DNA from: Bifidobacterium breve
GTDB lineage: Bacteria > Actinomycetota > Actinomycetes > Nanopelagicales > Nanopelagicaceae
Assembly (NCBI GenBank): GCA_945863115.1
Contig: CAMAYZ010000002.1
Span: 62,001 to 126,000 of the forward strand
Direction: 5' to 3'
DNA length: 64,000 nt
The notes under the pieces were generated by a model. The model made no database searches, was not told the origin of the DNA, and was given only the letters and a program-made list of their open reading frames with translations. Positions within the stretch are counted from its first letter, which is position 1. Each line of letters starts with the position of its first letter. The translations under genes and the position numbers were made by a program. Shown piece after piece: positions 21,569 through 23,069 of this stretch.

Positions 21569-22171
21569 TTACTTAATTCTTGGATTTTCTTTTATATAAG
21601 TTAGATGATCGCGCCAAGCACCTGCAATATGTAAATACCTAGGACGTATTCCTTCAAAGATATAGCCGCATTTTTCAGCTACCCGCTTAGAAGCATCGTT
21701 TTCTGGCCTCAAGTTAATTTCAATCCGATGAAGCGCTAAATCTTCTAAGCCAAATTTGGTCAATAATGAAACTGCCCGCGATGTGTATCCCTTATTGGCA
21801 TATCTTTGATCAATCCAATAACCAATATGGCCACCACGCATGGCTCCAAAGACGATGCCACCTAAAGTTATTTGACCGATAAAAATTTCGCTCCCATTCG
21901 CCTTTAACCAAATTCCAAGTGAGATTGATCGAAGGGCCTGACCATCTCGGCGATACGACTGAACCATTCCAAAGAATGTGGGCAAAGCAAGATGGGAATC
22001 TATTTCTGGCCTAGTGGCCTCCCATGGTGTTAACCACTCTCGATTTTTTGCTCTTGATAAGTCCCAAGCTTTTTTATCCCTAAAGCGAAGTGGTCGTAAA
22101 AATAATTCGTTATCGTAAAGTTTAATCGGCCAGGTTGAATTTGTGGCCAACTTAGTTTGAGCTCCGATCAA
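21569..22171 (-). CDS. GNAT acetyltransferase, RimJ/RimL-like
   Basis: FLRPLRFRDKKAWDLSRAKNREWLTPWEAT...GHIGYWIDQRYANKGYTSRAV...HRIEINLRPENDASKRVAEKCGY. Confidence 0.92.
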   Translation of the reverse strand: MIGAQTKLATNSTWPIKLYDNELFLRPLRFRDKKAWDLSRAKNREWLTPWEATRPEIDSHLALPTFFGMVQSYRRDGQALRSISLGIWLKANGSEIFIGQITLGGIVFGAMRGGHIGYWIDQRYANKGYTSRAVSLLTKFGLEDLALHRIEINLRPENDASKRVAEKCGYIFEGIRPRYLHIAGAWRDHLTYIKENPRIK

Positions 22172-23069
22172 GAACCATTACATCAACAACTTCGCCGGCT
22201 TTAAACCCACCTGAGTTTTCCGGAACAATGATGAAAGAATTTGCATCTGAGAGCGAAAGCAAATCACTCTGTCCTTCTAACGGGGTTGCGATTACGCCAT
22301 TTTCGGATGACAAGAGCGCACGGATAAATCCACTCTCACCCGGCGTTGCGGTAATCGAACTCTTTAGCTTCGCTTTCAGTTGATTACGGAAAATATTTGG
22401 TGCGCCTGCCATTTTGCGAATCATCGGACGAACGAAAATTTCGGCAGCGATACCTGCTACGACTGGATCTCCAGGTATCGTAATAACTGGAGTCTTGTCG
22501 GGGCCGATTAAGCCAAAGTTGTGAAGTCCACTCTCACTCATTTTTGGTCGGACAGTAGTTATCTCACCAAGTTCTTTTAACACTGCAGTGATTAATTCAA
22601 AAGATTCATCATGTCGCTCACCACTGATAACAATTAAATCAGCGCGCACTAGCTGGTCTTCAATAACTTCTCTTAACTGTTCGTGGTTCTCTGGAATTGT
22701 ATGAACTCGATAACCATTTGCGCCAGCTTCTCGAACTGCTGTAGTCAACATCCAAGAATTTGTTTCGAACTCATCTTCAGAATCAGCAAGTGGTTGGCCT
22801 GGCTCAACTAAATCATCGCCAGCAGAAATAACTACAACTCTTGGGTGTGGAAGTGTTGGTAAACGATCTAAGCCAATAGATGCTGCTAAACCAATTTGGG
22901 TAGATCTAATTCTTGAGCCACCTCGTAAAACTAAGCGTTCGCCAGCAAAAATGTCGTTCGCAAGAGTTGCACCATGAGCATCGAGCAGCGGCATATCAAA
23001 TGGTGAAAGCGGCGAAGCAATATCTAGAAGATTGGCTAGGAGCTCTTCGACGCTCGGCTGTTGTTCCAT
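22152..23069 (-). CDS. MoeA/Glp (gephyrin-like) homologue, shortened; lacks the domain II region
   Basis: VEELLANLLDIASPL...GATLANDIFA runs directly into GERLVLRGGSRIRSTQIGLAASIGLDRLPTLPHPRVVVISAGDDLVEPGQPL...TIPGDPVVAGIAAEIFVRPM; 305 aa versus about 400 aa in typical MoeA. Confidence 0.85.
   Translation of the reverse strand: MEQQPSVEELLANLLDIASPLSPFDMPLLDAHGATLANDIFAGERLVLRGGSRIRSTQIGLAASIGLDRLPTLPHPRVVVISAGDDLVEPGQPLADSEDEFETNSWMLTTAVREAGANGYRVHTIPENHEQLREVIEDQLVRADLIVISGERHDESFELITAVLKELGEITTVRPKMSESGLHNFGLIGPDKTPVITIPGDPVVAGIAAEIFVRPMIRKMAGAPNIFRNQLKAKLKSSITATPGESGFIRALLSSENGVIATPLEGQSDLLSLSDANSFIIVPENSGGFKAGEVVDVMVLDRSSN

Follow-up and report, generated by a model that had tools for sequence, protein, structure and literature searches.

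What role is left to a gephyrin/MoeA-like protein from which a whole domain has disappeared? The question is raised by glp, a gene in a 64,000-nucleotide stretch of Bifidobacterium breve DNA (GTDB family Nanopelagicaceae; assembly GCA_945863115.1, contig CAMAYZ010000002.1, positions 62,001 to 126,000), which we call the window. A preliminary description, made from the sequence letters, had proposed that molybdopterin (MPT) chemistry was lost from this MoeA/Glp homologue and that a minimal scaffold was kept for the divisome. Judged by sequence and fold comparisons, the gene is an orthologue of actinobacterial Glp, a gephyrin/MoeA-like divisome scaffold, and its product is quite probably a catalytically dead Glp with scaffolding as its only function. 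Coordinates of the gene, its domains, motifs and neighbors are collected in Table 1.

The top NCBIfam model for the protein was Glp_gephyrin (NF045515; 246.4 bits), followed by MoeA_actino (172.5 bits) and MoeA (PRK10680; 128.6 bits). Pfam detected MoCF_biosynth (residues 80-219) and MoeA_C (residues 232-300), both over cut-off. The top PDB match by sequence was Glp of Corynebacterium glutamicum (8bve, 1.2e-37). An AlphaFold2 model built with 34 relatives (predicted local distance difference test score, pLDDT, 85.8; predicted template modeling score, pTM, 0.84) had its top fold matches in the C. glutamicum Glp structures 8bve and 8bvf (E ~1e-29, best 6.6e-30; TMq, the template modeling score for the query, 0.82-0.85). 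In phylogenetic trees the protein was placed among the Glps, apart from other MoeA proteins, and nested with full-length Glps of its own family (support 100/100).

Alignment with these full-length Glps located the missing part. The first half of domain I aligns with residues 1-42 of the window Glp and the second half with the sequence from residue 44 on; domain II of C. glutamicum Glp comprises residues 46-145 (PMC10522489). Between the equivalents of C. glutamicum residues 36 and 160 the window Glp has 14 residues, where full-length relatives have 112-117 and C. glutamicum Glp has 125. The junction is of exactly this length in all 41 short Glps aligned. The Pfam domain MoeA_N was represented by just the last 21 positions of its profile (140-160 of 160; 14.8 bits vs the cut-off of 30.8). 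In the AlphaFold2 model a tight hairpin at the junction joins domain I strands 40-42 and 45-48 (pLDDT block means 88-90). By Pfam, alignments and model the four-domain architecture of Glp is reduced here by domain II, and the remainder has the fold of 8bve/8bvf; both Pro-rich hinges between domains I and III are retained (ASPLSP and LPTLPHPRV; the second hinge position reads VIRKV in E. coli MoeA). On these comparisons the cleanly absent segment is domain II, as the preliminary description had it, although its size is ~100 residues, not ~120.

The short form does not stem from an assembly error or a frameshift: 41 of 41 sequences have the common junction, and 17 closed genomes contain the short form. 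Encoding of domain II elsewhere in the window genome was also ruled out, no MoeA_N match being found there. We considered deletion through direct-repeat recombination; junction flanks in present-day full-length genes share just GAYAT-type microhomology, too short to argue from.

The active site is altered as well. Replacement of the SGGVSVG and KPGKP motifs, noticed at the outset, is borne out by alignment: SGGVSVGEAD reads SGERHDESF, KPGKP reads KMSES and, in addition, PGNPV has become PGDPV. Columns of residues D59, T100, R137 and D142 are absent from the window Glp, which also carries the changes E188D, D228E, K279S (E. coli MoeA numbering) and S371D; an alignment with domain II and the catalytic residues in place was not obtained. 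Among short Glps in general, D59, T100, R137 and D142 are deleted, E188 is replaced by D (40 of 41) and D228 by E (31 of 41), and K279 and S371 are variable. The 30 full-length Glps of the class keep all of the columns D59, T100, R137, E188, D228, D259, R350 and S371; in the K279 column all 30 have Q. Within the ISGERHDES loop, S149, G150, D154 and S156 show no variation in 35 relatives, so the loop at the old SGGVSVG site is maintained and not decaying.

In the window genome (1.32 Mb, 93.5% complete) we found no MoaA, MoaC, MoeA_N or MoCoBD_1 (xanthine-dehydrogenase-type molybdoenzyme); other molybdoenzyme families were not searched. Across 121 genomes of the family, MoaA and MoeA_N were both detected in 28, MoaA only in two, a MoeA_N fragment only in one and neither in 90. 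MoaA is absent from 87 of the 111 genomes with short Glp; 14 of the 87 are closed, and these lack MoeA_N as well. The suggested loss of molybdopterin chemistry from the window Glp and its genome is thus well supported; the opposite outcome, an intact molybdenum cofactor (Moco) pathway with no other MoeA, was not encountered.

Could the short protein still be an enzyme of Moco- or MPT-related chemistry, its domain II replaced by another protein? Its domain III keeps the MogA-like fold, and 24 short-Glp genomes do encode MoaA. Against this stand the four vanished positions and the changes of E188, D228 and K279 in most short Glps, the many short-Glp genomes devoid of MoaA, the separate MoeA present in 23 of the 24 that have it (~21-30% identity to Glp where compared) and the failure to find a free domain II gene in the window genome. 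We regard residual catalysis as very improbable. The separate, distant MoeA occurs in some family members, among them three from the same genus as the window (L047-L050), with moaA mostly on the same contig; patchy retention or regain of Moco is one reading of this pattern.

Full-length Glp persists in five genomes of the family, from genera g6 and g15, and there the situation is different. All five have MoaA, and the full-length Glp is their sole MoeA_N protein. MoaA and MoaC are encoded in the genomes of the g6 and g15 loci (L031-L034), and so are molybdoenzymes wherever a check was made; those of the xanthine-dehydrogenase type were detected in G005, G020 and G014. As the sole MoeA_N protein beside Moco genes, Glp of g6 and g15 may have a dual function, enzyme and scaffold, though the presence of Q at K279 in every full-length class Glp examined calls for caution here. 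The g6 operon reads galU-glp-moaC-mogA-rimJ-glpR; short-Glp genomes are without moaC and mogA at this place. Several other Actinomycetes, e.g. G232 (closed), G212 and G213, have MoaA and just one strong match of Glp/MoeA type (E <= 1e-30), hinting that a single-copy, possibly dual-function Glp is common in Actinomycetes.

Conservation across related genomes shows that the short form is a family-wide trait, and it recurs elsewhere. A Glp homologue was found in 116 of the 121 family genomes (111 short and five full-length); a search widened to the order did not lead beyond this family. The short Glps make one clade (support 100/100), which sits on a long stem among the Glps and is adjoined by the full-length g6 and g15 proteins; one clade with equal junction length in 41 sequences is explained by a single ancestral deletion. 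Pairwise ratios of nonsynonymous to synonymous substitution rates (dN/dS) against near relatives are 0.03-0.085, with dS near saturation in several pairs, and are below those of the neighboring rimJ and glpR genes in most pairs. A functionless MoeA relic decaying in its operon might have been expected from the loss of the active site and of one domain in a reduced genome. Such an explanation is the least credible of those considered; purifying selection refutes it, the Glp frames are mostly intact, and mean column identity among 35 relatives is 72%. By these measures short Glp is maintained by purifying selection.

The previously noticed neighbors are there: rimJ and, further downstream, a SepX/GlpR homologue. 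Linkage of glp and glpR is accompanied by co-occurrence: the GlpR homologue is present in 115 of the 121 family genomes and in 113 of the 116 that have Glp, so the partner appears to be retained, as had been suggested. Its hydrophobic segments (residues 1-20 and ~69-110, separated by a loop of ~48 residues) are consistent, by hydropathy alone, with the three transmembrane segments and disordered cytoplasmic loops of SepX/GlpR. The rimJ open reading frame, with a TTG start, overlaps the end of glp by 20 bases; its true start may lie further in.

In C. glutamicum, FtsZ binds domain IV of Glp at the central dimer interface, and GlpR binds an overlapping region (PMC10522489); loss of domain II leaves this interface intact. 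The FtsZ C-terminal peptide of DIDIPDFMK type is present in all 26 family FtsZ sequences read, and SepF is encoded near ftsZ. From orthology and synteny alone we infer a divisome role for short Glp, which presumably dimerizes, binds GlpR and acts at the septum.

Several observations weigh against the scaffold-only assignment with its role in division. The window Glp misses the curated NF045515 cut-off of 475 bits and matches the profile weakly before position 139; this is as expected for a protein lacking ~100 residues, and full-length Glps of the same family score 507-543 bits. The GlpR homologue likewise misses the cut-off of its best family, NF050099 (90 bits vs 150; aligned positions 63-216), and other SepX/GlpR models are weaker. 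The FtsZ/GlpR-binding hairpin is shortened in short Glps, and the equivalent of Tyr369 is Tyr in three of 41 short Glps vs 22 of 30 full-length class Glps. The hairpin is present in short Glps in this shortened form; the long form of the FtsZ-binding loop (M361 to Y369) is also absent from all 30 full-length class Glps. SepF alone may account for the conservation of the FtsZ C-terminal peptide. Finally, none of the eight family loci read has DivIVA/Wag31 at its usual site beside sepF-yggT: no gene for this C. glutamicum elongasome partner lies between yggT and ileS (it was not searched genome-wide), so the connection to Wag31 seen in C. glutamicum may not hold in this family. In those eight genomes, with full-length and short Glp, the cluster ftsZ-yfiH-yggS-sepF-yggT (L187:7347-10663, L188, L198-L203) is followed directly by ileS on the other strand.

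Some of these points are what an alternative away from FtsZ would build on. Bound to GlpR, short Glp would then serve as an adaptor or sense small molecules through a newly formed ligand pocket of domain III, as part of a membrane module outside the divisome. The lost FtsZ-contact tyrosine, the shorter hairpin and the missing DivIVA fit this picture, as does the newly conserved loop in place of the old active site, even if genera g10 and g13 do not keep its motif. Synteny and co-occurrence with GlpR, the presence of the FtsZ peptide and SepF, and the preserved hinge motifs speak for the divisome instead; we consider a role outside it unlikely, yet it is the most serious of the competing explanations.

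A class-wide scan pointed to two further short Glps: G335 (family f39, genus g94; L190:6572-7495; genome of 1.5 Mb, 97% complete, no MoaA) and G286 (family f5, genus g72; L192:856-1782; 1.4 Mb, 70% complete, no MoaA found). They have 307 and 308 residues, compared with 406-407 in their family mates (G344, G211, G238), and both genes lie within a galU-glp-rimJ-glpR operon. The G286 protein groups with full-length f5 Glps (100/100), and for both proteins a forced placement in the short clade of the window's family is rejected by the approximately unbiased (AU) test (p 0.0009 for G286, p 0.025 for G335). The junction anchors enclose 18 residues in g94, 13 in g72 and 14 in the window's family. AU rejection and unlike junction lengths speak against horizontal origin or one shared deletion and support separate losses, although the g94 case is weaker, with a long, poorly placed branch. 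By sequence comparison, at least two losses of domain II look firm and a third likely. Genus g21 of family f5 (L193:6371-7594, L194:1314-2537) has a full-length Glp with an eroded active site in a galU-glp-rimJ-glpR operon and no MoaA; it looks like a step before domain II excision.

We can outline a history for the window's family. The ancestor would have had full-length Glp in a galU-glp-moaC-mogA-rimJ-glpR operon, probably acting as or alongside molybdenum insertase. Moco synthesis would have been abandoned during genome reduction, with moaC and mogA leaving the operon; domain II would have been removed in frame and active-site residues altered. Purifying selection would have preserved the dimer core of domains I, III and IV, the two Pro-rich hinges and the glpR gene. 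Short Glp would most likely be a dimeric adaptor on the membrane receptor GlpR at the division septum, functioning without the domain II contacts that polymerize gephyrin and with an altered FtsZ contact. Retention of GlpR despite loss of domain II suggests scaffolding by the dimer core alone.

Table 1. Positions of glp, its domains and motifs, and adjacent genes in the window
Feature	Positions	Strand	Basis
glp-deltaII (domain-II-less Glp, gephyrin-like protein), 305 aa	22152-23069	-	NF045515, PDB matches, Glp clade in trees
Pro-rich hinge 1, ASPLSP, residues 18-23	23001-23018	-	alignment with Glps; hinge concept from PMC10522489
Domain II excision junction, IFAGERL, residues 40-46	22932-22952	-	alignment; AlphaFold2 model
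Pro-rich hinge 2, LPTLPHPR, residues 70-77	22839-22862	-	P74, P76, R77 invariant
Domain III, MogA-like, residues 77-220	22410-22841	-	PF00994, 38.1 bits; AlphaFold2 model
ISGERHDES, residues 148-156, at SGGVSVG active-site motif position	22602-22628	-	alignment
RPKMSESG, residues 174-181, at KPGKP motif position	22527-22550	-	alignment
PGDP, residues 199-202, at PGNP position	22464-22475	-	alignment
Domain IV, residues 230-301	22167-22382	-	PF03454 (MoeA_C), 49 bits
Domain IV beta-hairpin, equivalent of C. glutamicum Glp FtsZ/GlpR-binding loop	22281-22334	-	alignment
rimJ-type GNAT acetyltransferase	21569-22171	-	PF13302, 2.3e-19; NF008072 (RimJ), 65 bits, under cut-off
glpR/sepX membrane-protein homologue, 250 aa	20747-21499	-	NF050099 (SepX_GlpR_2), 90 bits; hydropathy

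Loss of domain II from Glp was not found in the literature under open licenses, nor in the two Glp papers. Enzyme activity of Glp is disputed between repurposing and moonlighting; a natural deletion of domain II, fixed throughout a large family from fresh water and probably recurring in other families, is strong evidence that the Moco-synthesis part is unneeded for the retained role. We lean slightly towards a more general statement: the Glp/GlpR system works without subdomain II, which was excised independently at least three times (the window's family, g94/f39 and g72/f5) in reduced genomes without MoaA that kept the galU-glp-rimJ-glpR operon; bacterial and animal repurposings of MoeA would assemble by different principles, and scaffold and enzyme functions would separate along a domain boundary. 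The short protein of 305 residues offers a minimal scaffold for structure work, and with the full-length relatives of genera g6 and g15, whose Glp is the sole MoeA-domain protein found alongside an apparent Moco pathway, it forms a matched pair on which the timing of the split of functions could be studied.

Among known systems, the closest is C. glutamicum Glp (Cgl0883; 8bve/8bvf, NF045515), of the same orthologous clade, with domains I, III and IV, Pro-rich hinges and an operon with rimJ and glpR in common; the window Glp differs by the absence of domain II, further loss of active-site residues and a shorter FtsZ hairpin without Tyr369. With SepX/GlpR (Streptomyces vnz_14865; C. glutamicum Cgl0885) the window homologue shares an N-terminal hydrophobic segment, a later hydrophobic pair and the operon position, whereas the loop after the first segment has ~48 residues vs intrinsically disordered region 1 (IDR1, 27-218) of C. 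glutamicum GlpR, and scores stay under NCBIfam cut-offs. MoeA/Mo-insertases (E. coli MoeA, Cnx1E) resemble the window Glp in how domains I, III and IV are folded, but in the window Glp domain II, with its part of the active site, is gone and most catalytic residues are replaced, in a genome without the Moco pathway. The gephyrin E domain of animals is likewise a MoeA-derived scaffold beside a membrane receptor; unlike short Glps, gephyrin retains enzyme activity and subdomain II, which builds filaments and whose deletion abolishes filaments, phase separation and receptor clustering (PMC12441120). Glps without domain II must therefore scaffold differently, and for them the gephyrin analogy fails at the level of assembly.
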